DNA of 39,211 nucleotides from Bacillota bacterium (GCA_021797825.1 JAJZZA010000029.1:1-39211), one strand, 5' to 3'. Shown: positions 28,323-37,442, counted from the first letter of the stretch. Program-made: numbers and translations. The notes: generated by a model from the letters alone, not told the origin.

Positions 28323-30080
28323 TTACCCCAATGGGCTGACCGTTAAAATGGCCTGCAAATCAAGTTGCAGCAGGCGGCCTTCGGCCAGATCCAGGACCTG
28401 CACCCAGCGCCCGTTCTGACCGACCGGAGCGACGTGGAGGGTGCGGGGGGCGCCGAGGTTGGGGAACAGATAGCTGACCACCACCCCCTGCCGGCGGGAG
28501 ATGGCCTCCGCCATCACGGTTTCCACGGACCGGGATTGCATGGTGGCGGGGTCGGGAAGGACGACGGATATAAAGGGCTCGCCGAGCCAAGGTTCGTCCG
28601 CCTCGGTCAAATCGTCTGCCGGATCGGATGCGCTGAGATGCCCCACGTCGGACCGGATCGGCAGTCCGGCTTTGTCCAGCGCCTTGCGGATCGCGGCCAG
28701 GTTGTGGGCGGGGAGCACTAAATCGGTAGGGGTCAGCCGGCCCCGCGCCAATTTCGCCAAGACCTTTTCGGCATGGAGCGAGTCTTGCGGGCTTTCGCTA
28801 TGGAGCAGCACGACATCCAGAATTTGATGCCGCGACAAGACTCGAAACCAATCCTCGATGTTGGTGGCCACGTTGCCCGGAAGGGAGGCGCGCGCCGCCA
28901 TTTCCAATGTGTCAAGGTAGTCATCCAGGGTCCAGCCGTGCGCCAGGGCGTTCGCCACGCTGTTCCGGGTCAAACGGTACACGGCCATCCGGTCGGAGCG
29001 GACCAGTTCCGCGATGGCGGCGATGTCCCACCTTTCATAAAATGGGGACTGCGGAGGGATCAGCACCTCCCCCGACGGTTCAATAATGATTTGGCCGGCT
29101 TGTTCGGGTTCAATCTGGCCGTTAATCGCGGCGTATCCCATGTCGGACAGGCGCACCCGGGGTCCGTCTTCCTGCCAAACGCCGAGACCGGTCAGATGAT
29201 TTCGCACCTGGGTATACGTGTAGGGGTTGTCCGCTTGCGGAAATCCCGCCTGGCGGAGCCACCCCAATGCCGGTTTTAACTTCAGATAGTGATCGGCCGG
29301 TGTCAAGCTGAGCAGTGCCAACAACCCATATTCACCGCCCCAGGCCGCGGGCAGGTTCCAGAAGAGCCCCCTAAACTGTTCCCACAGTTCCGTCAGCGGA
29401 ACGCGCCAGAACGAGTTGGCCTGCGGACCGAGCACCAGCTGCGCGGGATCGACTTGAAACGCCGTCAAATGGTTTGTGCGGCAAAACGCCAAAATAGTGT
29501 TTAAGCGCAGCAGTTTCACATCGTCCGCAGCGGGCCAGAACCGTTCCAAGAGCTTGTTTTGCACGCGTTTGTACAGCGTGGAGTGCTGGGTTACGGCCAA
29601 CGGGGTCTCGCGGGTATAGCTCAGCACCTGGAACAAGTCATAAAAGAACCCGGACCAGTGCGAAGCGGACAGTTCGTCGCGCGCCGTGGACGGACTGTCG
29701 AGCAACTCCGGCCAGGGAATGTTCTCGAGCAGGGAGAATAACAGAGGATAATATTCCCGCGGGATGATGAGTCCCGACTGATACACGGTTCCTTGCCGTT
29801 GAAAGGCGATCCCGCTGCGCGAAAAGTCTTGCATCACCCGCTTTTGCATGGCGGGGGGCAACTGCGCAAGCGTCATGGCCATTTCCCGGGATCCACGGAG
29901 CCAGGCCCGCAAGATTTTATGCGTTGGTTCCGCGCTTAAGGCCAGCCACTTGCCAACCCGGCCGGGGCTCAGCAATTGTTGCGGCCAGGTCTCAACAGGT
30001 CCTGCCAAACCGAGGGCAGGCGACTCTTCAGGCGAAAGACCCCGCAAGCACGCCATAAGGCTGGGGAAATCTGACATCAT
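28323..30080 (-). CDS. Helicase-associated protein (Helicase_C_3/XPB N-terminal-like), XPB partner
   Basis: This 585-residue protein resembles bacterial proteins annotated as helicase-associated with an XPB/Ssl2-like domain. The N-terminal two thirds appear as stacked winged-helix-like segments (for example LPPAMQKRVMQDFSRSGIAF and VRNHLTGLGVWQEDGPRVRLSDMG). A central IIEPSGEVLIPPQSPFYERWDIAAIAELV and YRLTRNSVANALAHGWTLDDYLDTLE are the family core. The C-terminus carries RQGVVVSYLFPNLGAPRTLHVAPVG, a WYL-like beta segment, and LDLQAILTVSPL. It has no Walker motifs. Its ATG overlaps the XPB stop by four bases (ATGA), so the two are made together in fixed ratio, and it probably binds XPB as archaeal Bax1 does. 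A nuclease function is not visible. Confidence 0.82.
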   Translation of the reverse strand: MMSDFPSLMACLRGLSPEESPALGLAGPVETWPQQLLSPGRVGKWLALSAEPTHKILRAWLRGSREMAMTLAQLPPAMQKRVMQDFSRSGIAFQRQGTVYQSGLIIPREYYPLLFSLLENIPWPELLDSPSTARDELSASHWSGFFYDLFQVLSYTRETPLAVTQHSTLYKRVQNKLLERFWPAADDVKLLRLNTILAFCRTNHLTAFQVDPAQLVLGPQANSFWRVPLTELWEQFRGLFWNLPAAWGGEYGLLALLSLTPADHYLKLKPALGWLRQAGFPQADNPYTYTQVRNHLTGLGVWQEDGPRVRLSDMGYAAINGQIEPEQAGQIIIEPSGEVLIPPQSPFYERWDIAAIAELVRSDRMAVYRLTRNSVANALAHGWTLDDYLDTLEMAARASLPGNVATNIEDWFRVLSRHQILDVVLLHSESPQDSLHAEKVLAKLARGRLTPTDLVLPAHNLAAIRKALDKAGLPIRSDVGHLSASDPADDLTEADEPWLGEPFISVVLPDPATMQSRSVETVMAEAISRRQGVVVSYLFPNLGAPRTLHVAPVGQNGRWVQVLDLAEGRLLQLDLQAILTVSPLG

Positions 30081-31804
30081 GCCCGCGTGCCTCCCGGGAA
30101 GGGGATGACCGGCGCCTGCTGCAATTCGGCTGGCGCCCCCGTTTCGTCGGCCCGCGCAATATCATAGCGGTATCCTTGTTCGCACAAAAACAGTTGGCGC
30201 TTTTGGGAAAAATCCTGTTCCCGGGTGTCTTCGGTAACCACCGAATAAAACGTGGCCTGGCCGCCGTCGGACTTGGGTCGCAACAAGCGTCCCAGGCGCT
30301 GCGCCTCTTCCTGGCGGGAACCAAAGGTGCCGCTGACCTGAATGGCAACATTGGCGTCGGGCAGATCGATGGCAAAGTTGGCGACTTTGGAGACCACCAA
30401 CACCGGGATCTCGCCGTCCCGAAACGCCTGATAAAGGGTTTCGCGTTCCCGCAGCGGGGTTTCTCCGGTTAGCAGCGGGGCGCGGGTGTGGGCCGCGAGT
30501 TGCCGCAGTTGCTCGAGATATTGGCCGATAATCAGGACATGGCTGCCTTGATGGTGGCGCAGCAACTCGTCGACCACCCCGATCTTGGCGGGATTCTCCG
30601 CGGCCAGCCGGATGCGTTCGTAATCGTCGTCGGCGCTGGCATAGCGGTCACGAAGCCCTCGGCTCATGCCCACCCGGATTTCCCGGCACGCGGCGGTGGC
30701 AATCCAGCCTTGCAGTTCGAGCTCCTTCCAGGGCATGTCAAAGCGTTTGGGCCCAATCAGCGCAAATACATCGTCCGCGCGCCCGTCTTCGCGGATTAAG
30801 GTGGCCGTGAGGCCAAGCCGCCGGCGGGCTTGGAGACTGGCCGTCAACCGGAACACGGGAGCTGGCAGCAAATGCACTTCATCGTAGATGATAAGTCCCC
30901 AGGGCTCGCGGTCCACCGTGTGAAAATGGGGGTAGCTGGCGCCTCGGCGATGGCTGAGCAATTGATAGGTGGTCAGCGTAACCGGACGGATATCTTTGGT
31001 GGTGGCGGTGAACTCGCCAATGTCGTCCGCCGTCAGGTGGGTTTTAGCGAGAATTTCCCGTTTCCATTGGTGCAGGGCGGCGACCGACGTAGTGAGAATC
31101 AGGGTATGGGTGGCGGCTTCGGCCATTGCCCCCAGGCCCACCATGGTCTTGCCGGCGCCGCAGGGCAAGACGACCACGCCATGTCCGGCCTGGGCGGCTC
31201 CGTTTCCCCAGAATGCCCGCACGGCAGCGCTCTGATAGCCGCGCAGGCCAAACTCGCGGCCATCCGCGGTGCTCTCGCGCAGAAGGACCGCAAGCGGGGC
31301 CCCGTCGACATAGCCGGCGGTATCGTCGGCCGGCCACCCGGCTTTGGCCAGGGCCTGTTTCAGCAATCCCCGGTGTTCCGGGAGAATCCGGTATCCGGGA
31401 TGAAGAATTGGGCCCAGATAGGGCTGAACATGCTTGTGATGGCCGATTTGGGTTAACAAAAAGGGCTCGTCCGATGTGAGCCAGAGGCCGTCGCCATCGG
31501 GGGAGGGCTTGAGCAGCAACCGTCCATAGCGCCGCGCCTGGTCCACCACAAACGAGGCGACCTCGACCGGGATGGGATAGCGCGAATAGGCTTGCAGCCG
31601 TGACAAAATATCGTCAGGTCCCAGACCGGCGGCGGCTGCGTTCCACAAAGAGAGCGGCGTCATCCGGTAGGTGTGCACGTGTTCGGGACTCTTCACCAAT
31701 TCCGCGAATCCGACCAGCGCGTCGCGCGCCTCCTCAAACGCCGGGGTTCCCACTTCGAGTAAAATGGTTCGGTCGCTTTGGACGATAAGCGGCTTGGGTT
31801 CCAA
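30077..31804 (-). CDS. XPB-family DNA repair helicase (SF2)
   Basis: This 575-residue helicase resembles TFIIH subunit XPB and its bacterial relatives. Residues about 1-180 hold the N-terminal XPB damage-recognition-like region. Motifs: Walker A LPCGAGKT (213-220), DEVH box (308-311), GLTAT (331-335), the XPB-specific RED motif (338-340), and the motif VI region RQEEAQRLGRLLRPK. It unwinds or translocates along DNA with 3'-5' polarity in related proteins. The TTG start follows AAAGGAGGGATCTC. A perfect TATAAT -10 lies 50 bases upstream on the minus strand. It is cotranscribed with the partner protein and, given endonuclease IV elsewhere in the window, fits a repair role, though bacterial XPB function is little known. 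Confidence 0.93.
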   Translation of the reverse strand: MEPKPLIVQSDRTILLEVGTPAFEEARDALVGFAELVKSPEHVHTYRMTPLSLWNAAAAGLGPDDILSRLQAYSRYPIPVEVASFVVDQARRYGRLLLKPSPDGDGLWLTSDEPFLLTQIGHHKHVQPYLGPILHPGYRILPEHRGLLKQALAKAGWPADDTAGYVDGAPLAVLLRESTADGREFGLRGYQSAAVRAFWGNGAAQAGHGVVVLPCGAGKTMVGLGAMAEAATHTLILTTSVAALHQWKREILAKTHLTADDIGEFTATTKDIRPVTLTTYQLLSHRRGASYPHFHTVDREPWGLIIYDEVHLLPAPVFRLTASLQARRRLGLTATLIREDGRADDVFALIGPKRFDMPWKELELQGWIATAACREIRVGMSRGLRDRYASADDDYERIRLAAENPAKIGVVDELLRHHQGSHVLIIGQYLEQLRQLAAHTRAPLLTGETPLRERETLYQAFRDGEIPVLVVSKVANFAIDLPDANVAIQVSGTFGSRQEEAQRLGRLLRPKSDGGQATFYSVVTEDTREQDFSQKRQLFLCEQGYRYDIARADETGAPAELQQAPVIPFPGGTRA

Positions 31805-31853
31805 GAGATCCCTCCTTTTGTCCTCTTGCCAAATCTCGACAGGCTATGGCGTT

Positions 31854-32981: not shown

Positions 32982-34646
32982 GTGAGGGAGGGCGAAAGGC
33001 GGCCATCGGCTTCGCGGCGGACTTGGATGCTGGGGCTTAGCCTCGGAGCCATCGCGGTCTTCTTGGCAGCGGCGGCTTTCGCCGCCCACCAGTATCTGCG
33101 CCGACTGGCTTTGGCGCTCACGGCCTTGCAGGAAGCCGCACGCCTCTTGCCCCTGCGGCCGGGACTGGCGGAGCACCTGATCGCGGCCGCGGCGGATCTG
33201 TTGGGGCAACCCCGGCCGTCCGGCGGTTTGGCGGACCAGATTGGGCAGCTTGAGCAGATTGCCATGTCGCGGCTCGCCTATACCACGGCGGGATGGGCGC
33301 CAGCCGGGCTTTCGATCCTGTTGGCGGTGCTGCTGCTGATGGTGGTCGCGGTGTATTGGGTCAAGGAACGCGCCATCGATCGCATCGCGGAGGAACGCCA
33401 GCTGCTGCAAAAGCAACTCTTGGCGATTACCGGAGGGTGGGGGGCGCTCCCCAGCCAAGCCGGCACCCAGGCCGTGGTCGAACATATTTTGCGTCAGCTG
33501 CGCGAGCATACCGCGGTGAGGTCGGCCACGGTGTTCCGCATCGACGAGTCGATGCGCAACAACGCGGTGGTGGCGTATTGCCAGGCGGGACTGGGTGTGC
33601 CTTTGGGGCACGATCCCATACCGCGCTTGTTTCTGCATCCCAATTTCGGTCTGCTCGGCCGCGCACTGACAGACAACCTGGCGGTCTACAGCGGTGATGT
33701 CGGCGAGCAGGGCATGGTTGTGCCGGGCGTGCGGCTGGCCCGCGTCGCCCTCTACCCGTTGCGCTACCAAGAGACCTTGTGGGGCGTGTTGGCCTTGCAA
33801 GGCGAAGAGCCGGGATGGTTTGCCCGCTATCGTGATTTGCTGGATGTGATTGTGCAGGACATCTCCATCTTGCTGGTCAATGCCAAACTTGCCGCCCAGT
33901 CTCGACAAATTGCGGTGTACCAAGAGATGGCGCGGGTGCGCTCGGAGATCCTGGCCAACGTGTCCCATGAGCTGCGCACGCCTTTAGGCCTGATCAAAGG
34001 CTACGTCGAGACCCTCTTGTCCGCCCCGGACCAGTTGTCGCTGGGCGATCGCCAGGAATTCTTGGCGATCGTAGGCGAAGAGACCCGGGAACTTGAACAT
34101 TTAATTGACAACCTGCTCTATATGTCGCGGCTGGAAACCGTCGGGATTCGCTTGGAGAAGGACTGGTTTGACGCGCAAGAATGGGTGGCGCAGGTCTTGC
34201 GGCGCATCCTCGGCGAGGCCCGCTCACGGGTATCGCTCGAGGTGGCGGACCATGTCTCACTCTACGGCGATGCGGGCCAATTGGCGCATGTTCTCGACAA
34301 CATCCTGCAAAACAGCCTAAAATATTCCAGTGGACCGGTCGAACTGACTGTCGAGCAAACTCCCCAGGGAGGACAGATTACGGTGCGCGACCGTGGTCCT
34401 GGGGTTTCGGAAGAGGATTTGCCGCGAATTTTTGAAAGGTTTTACCGTAGCATGGACCATGCTCAGTCCGAGATCCGGGGCTCTGGCCTGGGTCTTAGCA
34501 TCGCCCGGCGCGTGGTGGAAGCGCACGGAGGGCGGATCGTGGCCGCCAATGGAGTCCCCGGCGGATTGGTTGTCAGCGTGGATCTGCCCGCGCCGCCGGC
34601 GCGCGCCGACGCGGCAGAAGGGAGTCCCAACCGGCATGGCGGATGA
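32982..34646 (+). CDS. Membrane sensor histidine kinase with GAF domain
   Basis: This 554-residue kinase has two membrane helices (about residues 14-36 and 106-128) bracketing a small outside domain of some 70 residues, then a coiled segment, a GAF domain (about 160-305), the dimerisation domain with phospho-acceptor His329 in NVSHELRTP, and an ATPase domain with the N box (NILQNSLKYS), DRGPGVSEEDLPRIFERFYR and GSGLGLSIARRVVEAHGG. The GTG start follows AAGGAGCGG. It sits where KdpD would be but lacks KdpD's N-terminal ATP-binding and universal-stress domains and its four-helix bundle. Its end overlaps the regulator gene by 11 bases. The input may be redox, small-molecule or osmotic; this is inference. 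Confidence 0.93.
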   Translation: MREGERRPSASRRTWMLGLSLGAIAVFLAAAAFAAHQYLRRLALALTALQEAARLLPLRPGLAEHLIAAAADLLGQPRPSGGLADQIGQLEQIAMSRLAYTTAGWAPAGLSILLAVLLLMVVAVYWVKERAIDRIAEERQLLQKQLLAITGGWGALPSQAGTQAVVEHILRQLREHTAVRSATVFRIDESMRNNAVVAYCQAGLGVPLGHDPIPRLFLHPNFGLLGRALTDNLAVYSGDVGEQGMVVPGVRLARVALYPLRYQETLWGVLALQGEEPGWFARYRDLLDVIVQDISILLVNAKLAAQSRQIAVYQEMARVRSEILANVSHELRTPLGLIKGYVETLLSAPDQLSLGDRQEFLAIVGEETRELEHLIDNLLYMSRLETVGIRLEKDWFDAQEWVAQVLRRILGEARSRVSLEVADHVSLYGDAGQLAHVLDNILQNSLKYSSGPVELTVEQTPQGGQITVRDRGPGVSEEDLPRIFERFYRSMDHAQSEIRGSGLGLSIARRVVEAHGGRIVAANGVPGGLVVSVDLPAPPARADAAEGSPNRHGG

Positions 34647-35747: not shown

Positions 35748-37442
35748 GTGTCGGTGCAGACGATAGTGACCTGGGCGGTCGTGGCCGCGATTTTTGCGCT
35801 GACGGTCAAACCGCTCGGAACCTACATCGTGCGAGTGTTTACGTTTCAGCCGACTATTTTGGACAAACCGCTGCGTCCGCTGGAAAATGCCGTCTTCCGA
35901 ATGTTTGGGGTTGACCGCGACAGCAACATGACGGCCAAGCAATACGGCATCGCGTTTGTGCTGTCCAATCTCGCCTGGATGATCCTGTCTTACGTGTTCT
36001 TGCGGATGCAGGGGATTTTACCGTTTAATCCGCAACACTTCGGCGCGATTAACCCGCAACTGGCCTTTAACACCGCCACCAGTTTTACCACCAACACCAA
36101 CTGGCAGGCGTACAGCGGCGAGAATACCATGTCATATTTCTCGCAGTTCGCCAACCTGGGATTCCTCCAATTTGTGACGCCGGCGGCAGGGGGGGCGGTT
36201 GGGATCGCATTTTTGCGGGCGTTGTCCGGTCGCAAGCTCGGCAACTATTTTGTGGATTTGACCTTGATGTGCACGCGATTGTTGCTGCCGCTCGCGATTG
36301 TGGTGGGACTCATCATGGTGGGCCAGGGCGTGCCGGAGACGCTGGCGCCCTATCTTCACATCCATACCATTTCCGGCCAAACCCAGGTGGTGCCGCGCGG
36401 ACCGATTGCCTCCTGGGAGGCGATCGAACACTTGGGGAATAACGGCGGAGGCTACACCAACGCCAATTCGGCCAACCCGCTGGAAAATCCGACACCGTTT
36501 ACCAATGTCGTGCAGACCGTCGCCATGGGATTGATTCCGGTCGCGTTTTTCTACGCGTTCGGGGTGATGACCGGCCGGAAAAAAGTGGCGTGGACGCTGA
36601 TCGGCGTGGCGGGCACCATTTTTGCGGTGCTGTTGGCGATGATTTACGTTCCGGAGCATCTCGGCAACCCGCTGATCAATGCGTTGGGTCTCAACACGCA
36701 TGCCAATATGGTGGGTAAGGAGCTGCGGTTCGGCATCGGCGGCACTTCGATTTTCGAGACGGCGACCATGTCGTTTACCACCGGATCGGTCGCCAGCGCC
36801 CACGACAGCTTTTTGCCGATTCCGGGCTTGGCCTTTTTTACCGCGATGTTCCTGAATCTGGTCTTCGGGGGCAAGGGCGTCGGGCTCATCAACATGATGA
36901 TGTTCGTCATTATCGCCGTGTTCCTGATGGGCCTGATGGTGGGGCGCACCCCCGAATTTTTGGGGAAGAAGATTGAGACGCGGGAAGTTTCGCTGGCATC
37001 CATTGCCTTTTTGCTTCATCCCTTGTTGATCCTGGTGGGCACGGCGCTGGCCATTGCGTTGCCCGTCGGACTGAAAGGGGTCTACAACCCGGGTCCGCAG
37101 GGATTTTCCGAGATTCTCTACGGGTTTTCGTCGGCGGCGGCCAACAATGGATCCGCGTTCGGCGGCTTAGGCGCCGCGCTTCCCTTCTATGAGGTCGCGC
37201 TGGGCGTCACCGTGCTGATCGGACGTTATGCGTCGCTGATGGCGATGCTGTTGTTGGGGGAATCCCTGCTGCGCAAGAAGACGGTGCCGGTCACCTCGGG
37301 CACGATGCGAACCGAAGGATGGCTGTTCGGCGGCATCCTCTTGGGTGCCATCGTGGTCTTGAATGCCCTGACATTTTTTCCGGTGGCCGCGCTTGGCCCG
37401 TTGGCCAATCACTATCTGCTCATGGCTCACCACCTGTTTTAG
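35748..37442 (+). CDS. kdpA: KdpA, potassium channel-like subunit of Kdp ATPase
   Basis: This 564-residue membrane protein selects potassium for the high-affinity KdpFABC pump, related to the Trk/Ktr channel family. The four pore-loop repeats are visible: TNTNWQAYSGENTMSY, NNGGGYTNANSANPLENPT, FETATMSFTTGSVASAHDS and SSAAANNGSAFGGL. About ten membrane helices are evident. The start is GTG, preceded by GAGGAGATGATGAG. Compared with the usual loop 3 (GSVNSMHDS) the asparagine and methionine are alanines here, which may be normal for this lineage. kdpB follows 18 bases downstream. Confidence 0.97.
   Translation: MSVQTIVTWAVVAAIFALTVKPLGTYIVRVFTFQPTILDKPLRPLENAVFRMFGVDRDSNMTAKQYGIAFVLSNLAWMILSYVFLRMQGILPFNPQHFGAINPQLAFNTATSFTTNTNWQAYSGENTMSYFSQFANLGFLQFVTPAAGGAVGIAFLRALSGRKLGNYFVDLTLMCTRLLLPLAIVVGLIMVGQGVPETLAPYLHIHTISGQTQVVPRGPIASWEAIEHLGNNGGGYTNANSANPLENPTPFTNVVQTVAMGLIPVAFFYAFGVMTGRKKVAWTLIGVAGTIFAVLLAMIYVPEHLGNPLINALGLNTHANMVGKELRFGIGGTSIFETATMSFTTGSVASAHDSFLPIPGLAFFTAMFLNLVFGGKGVGLINMMMFVIIAVFLMGLMVGRTPEFLGKKIETREVSLASIAFLLHPLLILVGTALAIALPVGLKGVYNPGPQGFSEILYGFSSAAANNGSAFGGLGAALPFYEVALGVTVLIGRYASLMAMLLLGESLLRKKTVPVTSGTMRTEGWLFGGILLGAIVVLNALTFFPVAALGPLANHYLLMAHHLF

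Follow-up and report, generated by a model that had tools for sequence, protein, structure and literature searches.

Does the XPB helicase of bacteria act on its own, or does it belong to a larger assembly with a partner protein of recognizable kind? To our knowledge, bacterial XPB has been assayed in purified form for more than ten years as a lone and rather inefficient enzyme, and we know of no partner. The question is raised by a locus in a DNA stretch of 39,211 nucleotides from a Bacillota bacterium (GCA_021797825.1, JAJZZA010000029.1:1-39211; hereafter the window), in which an XPB gene overlaps the gene of a large second protein. According to the analysis described below, what the two genes encode is probably a module of XPB and p52 in bacteria that corresponds to the XPB/p52 portion of TFIIH. 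The second protein looks like a homolog of p52/Tfb2 that is composed of winged helices, a clutch domain and a C-terminal alpha/beta domain, with a WYL domain added. The homology and fold of both proteins, a common gene order with translational coupling and a near-constant co-occurrence were established computationally.

Organization of the XPB locus

The XPB helicase gene is located on the minus strand (30077..31804), starts with a TTG codon and encodes a protein of 575 amino acids. A Shine-Dalgarno-like element, AAAGGAGG (AAGGAGG), can be read from the sequence 6 nt 5' of this start codon (31811..31818, minus strand). The gene of the partner (28323..30080, minus strand) encodes 585 amino acids and is termed p52/Tfb2-like according to the Foldseek and profile matches of its product. 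Both genes are joined by the motif ATGA (30077..30080, minus strand), in which the XPB stop codon and the start codon of the partner gene overlap, as expected for translational coupling and as seen also in Bacillota loci; the gene coordinates and the 4-base overlap given in the initial annotation were thereby reproduced. Among 27 related Bacillota loci, 13 have an overlap of exactly 4 nt, which, along with the near-constant co-occurrence of the two genes, indicates a pairing beyond chance. A promoter scan of the locus yielded two weak matches compared with 0.9 expected. The neighboring genes on the plus strand, encoding a histidine kinase (32982-34643) and the potassium transport protein KdpA (35748-37439), are unrelated to the pair.

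The XPB helicase and its N-terminal domain

The deduced helicase scored 822.8 bits with the curated model NF045503 (cut-off 610) and 344 bits with TIGR00603, and it contains the Pfam domains ERCC3_RAD25_C, ResIII and Helicase_C. Comparison with 18 relatives revealed that the motifs GAGKT, DEVH, RED and QEEAQRLGR are invariant or nearly so, with motif I CGAGKT (31145..31162), motif II DEVH (30872..30883) and the RED motif formed by R338, E339 and D340 (30785..30793; all on the minus strand) being invariant in the 18 XPB proteins. The score above the cut-off and the conserved motifs confirm the initial description of an intact XPB with its RED motif.

The protein begins with a eukaryotic-type N-terminal domain (NTD; PF13625, residues 6-130, 3e-32; 31415..31789, minus strand), and a profile of bacterial XPB NTDs searched against the PDB matched XPB NTDs alone (2e-20). 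The type of XPB was judged on the XPB part of a second structure model, that of Cryobacterium. The Cryobacterium XPB matched eukaryotic XPB with an E value of 4e-35 including the NTD, whereas the match to archaeal XPB of the Bax1 type was weaker (5e-20) and began after the NTD. The archaeal XPB proteins that have been crystallized are those pairing with Bax1. Since these NTD-less archaeal proteins have Bax1, which is absent here, the XPB NTD and the p52-type partner appear to go together. By analogy, the NTD would be expected to pair with the clutch domain of the partner.

Predicted structure of the partner protein

An AlphaFold2 model of the partner was built from 39 homologs (mean pLDDT 85.2, pTM 0.72) and compared with 350,542 PDB chains by Foldseek. 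Ranks 1-21 were occupied exclusively by p52/Tfb2 chains from TFIIH structures, with E values from 1e-12 to 2e-6 and mostly about 500 aligned columns, followed by XPB NTDs (3.4e-6) and then by WYL regulators (7e-4 and weaker). Full-length p52 was matched with 1.6e-12 and a C-terminal piece of p52 starting at residue ~145 (7nvv_2) with 1.3e-8; because the longer p52 outscores both this fragment and the XPB NTD, the similarity is not due to the clutch domain alone. VIA-align placed residues 7-472 of the model on residues 19-459 of p52 (Z 11.6), and the order of the winged helices at the N-terminus, the clutch and the C-terminal domain is the same in both proteins, with nearly equal residue numbering. 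The overall TM-scores are low (0.2-0.4), which we read as the result of differing angles between the domains of flexible multidomain chains and which remains a weakness of the comparison.

The N-terminal half of the partner (29109..30080, minus strand) is rich in winged helices, was modeled with pLDDT values mostly of 80-95 and aligns with the winged-helix domains of p52. The adjoining clutch domain (residues 328-419; 28824..29099, minus strand) was recognized by PF13625, VIA, hhalign and the p52 profile match. PF13625 is the single Pfam match in the partner (residues 332-428, 1.4e-13) and represents the same domain that forms the N-terminus of XPB. In VIA superpositions, the clutch fits XPB NTDs with an rmsd of 1.2-1.3 A and a Z value of about 10.4, and the profile comparison with hhalign yielded 1.5e-22 at 25% identity over 130 columns, confirming that the partner clutch and the XPB NTD are homologous. 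The C-terminal alpha/beta domain (residues 420-472; 28665..28823, minus strand) lies within the p52 alignment, which extends to p52 residue 459, and occupies the position of the p8-binding domain of p52 in the VIA alignment.

The initial annotation had assigned winged-helix-like and WYL-like segments to the partner, and the AlphaFold2 model with its Foldseek and VIA matches bears this out. Overlooked, however, were the PF13625 domain common to the partner and the XPB N-terminus and p52/Tfb2 as the nearest structures. Correspondingly, the view of a helicase-associated protein holds in so far as the partner belongs to a conserved XPB module, but the protein is more than one of an unassigned kind, being p52/Tfb2-like in sequence and fold.

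The WYL-type domain

The C-terminal residues 516-585 of the partner (28326..28535, minus strand) form a WYL-type domain that is absent from p52. It was recognized by its VIA fit to BrxR (1.9 A over 70 residues, Z 9.9) and superposes on BrxR, CapW, PafBC and DriD at about 1.9-3 A. The Pfam model PF13280 was detected in seven of the 39 partner homologs (best match 3.9e-9), and the domain of the window partner gave no Pfam match; several partners, namely those of Thorarchaeota and of locus L085, are devoid of a WYL domain according to Pfam. WYL domains like those of PafBC, BrxR, CapW and DriD sense single-stranded DNA, as is known for the family and reflected in the titles of the PDB entries 9c5g and 8tp8, and the WYL domain of the partner may, by analogy, have a comparable role.

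Sequence similarity of the partner to p52/Tfb2

A profile of the 39 partner sequences matched p52 of Chaetomium (2.7e-9), human p52 (1.2e-5) and yeast Tfb2 (2e-4), as well as XPB NTDs (1e-10), slightly better than p52. When the profile was constructed from the partners of Bacillota and a few other non-actinobacterial species, human p52 ranked first (5.8e-6), with a match covering the last winged helix and the clutch, and XPB ranked second (8.6e-4). The clutch region alone provided a profile that matched p52 (4.3e-6) and XPB, whereas the control profile of the bacterial XPB NTD did not detect p52 at E values up to 10. The p52 likeness is therefore the partner's own and goes beyond what the domain in common with XPB would explain.

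The N-terminal half of the partner, searched separately against PDB sequences, gave no significant p52 match above noise level. PF03849, the Tfb2 model of Pfam, was not found in the window partner and matched seven of the 39 homologs (best 6.9e-5), all of them below the cut-off of 34.5 bits among the matches listed. Since this cut-off was not reached, the plain Pfam label Tfb2 is not claimed for the protein. With the weak PF03849 matches and no p52 match for the N-terminal half on its own, the homology of this half is argued from fold and domain order. A phmmer search with the single partner sequence was without a match, and a profile of the Thorarchaeota partners alone matched XPB only, and weakly, with no match to p52. 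The partner evolves fast, with 15-30% identity where XPB retains 50-72%. In three Brevibacillus genomes (G154, G155, G156), extra reading frames of 377 amino acids matched the N-terminal half of the partner alone (about 1e-15 to 1e-19). As judged from their sequences, these putative proteins may form a related, clutch-less family that lacks the XPB-binding domain.

Conservation of the gene pair

A true XPB gene was detected in nine of 101 Bacillota genomes. All nine also contain the partner, which did not occur without XPB in any of the 101 genomes. In an enlarged set of 398 Bacillota genomes, PF13625 was present in 35, of which 31 contain two or more copies; with few exceptions, these copies share a contig, and the distance between them is in most cases about 2.4-3 kb. 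A further 80 XPB loci, drawn from many phyla, were gathered with an XPB query, the partner alignment being too divergent for a contig search. The partner gene is situated near XPB in 52 of these loci and elsewhere in the genome for 24 of the other 28, amounting to 76 of 80 XPB genomes with a partner, Thorarchaeota included; the remaining four genomes are small, possibly incomplete or uncertain. A frequent occurrence of XPB without the partner, named in the initial annotation as an outcome speaking against the pair, was thus not observed (9/9; 76/80).

The order of the genes is XPB followed by the partner in Bacillota and the reverse in most Actinomycetota. In Thorarchaeota, the partner gene is found a few kb downstream of XPB, beside a gene resembling replication factor C. 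The evolutionary distances of XPB and the partner are correlated (r 0.34, with none of 2000 permutations as high and without a control gene), which fits co-inheritance and is given little weight.

Several loci deviate from the common arrangement. Two divergent XPB-like genes (G005:C20:47122-48741, with 397 bits below the XPB cut-off, and G299:C1:277136) were found with a single PF13625 domain and no detectable partner, and they perhaps represent a partner-free XPB subfamily. A second p52-like gene (L051, 4604-6403, minus strand) is present in genome G107 from the family of the window organism, with the XPB-linked copy on another contig. In Chloroflexota, XPB is followed by two different tandem p52-like genes, both with PF13625 (L089, 4911-9557; L130, 2330-6628), the products of which might possibly form a heterodimer. 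The Thorarchaeota loci L098, L106 and L113 encode bacterial-type XPB proteins with an NTD that form one clade; their p52-like proteins lack the WYL domain and contain a C-terminal cysteine cluster, and the replication-factor-C-like gene adjoins. Contamination of the metagenome-assembled genomes is a possible explanation of this pair. In five loci (L131, L139, L142, L143, L145), the tblastn matches of XPB span about 2.4-2.5 kb versus 1.6 kb, probably because the NTD match runs into the upstream p52-like gene, with an insertion as the alternative. A Hydrogenedentota locus (L087, 3337-6513) contains an AddB-like PD-(D/E)XK nuclease gene directly after XPB and the p52-like gene elsewhere, and in two spirochaete loci (L088, 7734-8951; L095, 2041-3270) XPB is overlapped by 4 nt by the gene of a protein of 405-409 amino acids, for which Pfam and NCBIfam gave no significant match.

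Alternative explanations

The WYL domain and the winged helices would also suit a DNA-damage-responsive regulator of the XPB gene or of a damage regulon, which would have borrowed a domain resembling the XPB NTD. The structural fit of the WYL domain to BrxR, CapW, PafBC and DriD at about 1.9-3 A, the presence of winged helices in the partner and the response of such WYL proteins to single-stranded DNA, known for the family, are all compatible with this explanation. It is nevertheless considered unlikely, since the full-length match to p52 (1e-12) stands against 7e-4 for the WYL regulators, the partner has the type of domain by which p52 contacts XPB in TFIIH, its gene is translationally coupled downstream of XPB, and several partners (Thorarchaeota, L085) do without a WYL domain according to Pfam. 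Alternatively, a copy of the XPB NTD might have been fused to ordinary winged helices in bacteria, in which case the likeness to p52 would be the result of convergence. That the partner clutch matches p52 when the bacterial XPB NTD does not, that the Bacillota-based profile favors p52 over XPB, and that domain order and near-equal numbering agree with p52 from end to end leave such a fusion with a comparably small probability, even if winged helices occur widely, a p52 sequence signal is missing from the N-terminal half by itself, and clutch and NTD are clearly homologous.

The third possibility, a helicase-nuclease pair of the XPB-Bax1 type with a cryptic nuclease, follows the same genomic logic of an XPB gene with an adjoining partner gene. 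It is highly improbable, because DUF790 is absent from the partner and from its genome while the controls were positive, no nuclease family was detected in the 39 partners, and no nuclease fold occurred among the top matches. The identification of the partner as Bax1 was accordingly rejected on the missing DUF790. Comparison with Bax1, suggested in the initial annotation, hence sets the module apart from XPB-Bax1, and the statement that the partner has no visible nuclease motif stands for the window protein as well as for the 39 homologs. The assignment to an anti-phage defence system by PADLOC was unsupported as well: the partner matched none of the systems and XPB gave generic helicase matches only.

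Proposed function of the probable XPB-p52 module

Within TFIIH, XPB is recruited through a pseudo-symmetric dimer in which its NTD pairs with the homologous clutch of p52 (PMC6422496), and its ATPase is both stimulated and held in check by p52/p8 (PMC7708078). Mutants of the yeast Tfb2 clutch at the XPB interface are impaired in growth, and those tested are very UV sensitive (PMC9557730). By analogy with TFIIH, the clutch of the bacterial partner would pair sheet to sheet with the XPB NTD, recruit XPB and regulate its ATPase. More loosely, the winged helices might position the two proteins on double-stranded DNA, and the WYL domain might sense or hold single-stranded DNA at an opened or damaged site, at which XPB would act as a double-stranded DNA translocase. 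Because UvrA was found in the same genome as the pair, the module would work beside UvrABC; it would add to UvrABC repair or serve another DNA-opening process rather than replace UvrABC. The complex was modeled as an in-frame read-through of the Cryobacterium partner and XPB genes (L144) with the stop codons read as a serine linker, yielding a pLDDT of 79.9, a pTM of 0.44 and no readable interface. A search for p8/Tfb5 gave no match in the genome, with the control remaining silent everywhere too.

According to a paper from 2012 (PMC3353954), neither homologs of p52 nor a complex of XPB had been detected in bacteria. Likewise, no description of a bacterial XPB-p52 pair was encountered in the literature searched by title, abstract and term count, with subscription papers and preprints lying outside this search. 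The Mycobacterium tuberculosis genes Rv0861c and Rv0862c presumably represent such an XPB/partner pair. If the partner is p52, earlier assays of bacterial XPB were performed without its regulator, and simple organisms would allow an ancient part of TFIIH to be tested. A TFIIH-like core may thus exist in bacteria, and the pairing of XPB with p52 would be older than eukaryotes, with a possible sensor of single-stranded DNA added to it. The more extended proposal has about an even chance of being correct: that the XPB-p52 core of TFIIH arose before the eukaryotes as a widespread two-protein machine of many bacterial phyla and Thorarchaeota, and that many bacterial p52 proteins use a WYL sensor of single-stranded DNA to couple opening by XPB to damage or single-stranded DNA.

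Comparison with known systems

The proteins related to parts of this module resemble it to different degrees. PafBC, BrxR, CapW and DriD share the C-terminal WYL fold and the winged helices with the partner, but they are transcription regulators without a clutch domain or a linkage to XPB. The XPB protein of M. tuberculosis is likewise a bacterial XPB with an N-terminal domain but was studied alone (PMC3353954). Archaeal XPB-Bax1 also combines XPB with a dedicated partner; Bax1, however, is a DUF790 nuclease, and the XPB that goes with it is devoid of the NTD; the pair described here differs in both respects. The XPB/Ssl2-p52/Tfb2 part of TFIIH has the same type of XPB with an NTD and a partner in which, according to the fold comparison, winged helices, a clutch related to the XPB NTD and a C-terminal domain follow one another as in the bacterial protein. 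The bacterial pair differs from this eukaryotic subcomplex in its organization as a translationally coupled two-gene operon, in the extra WYL domain and in the presence of UvrA in the same cell.
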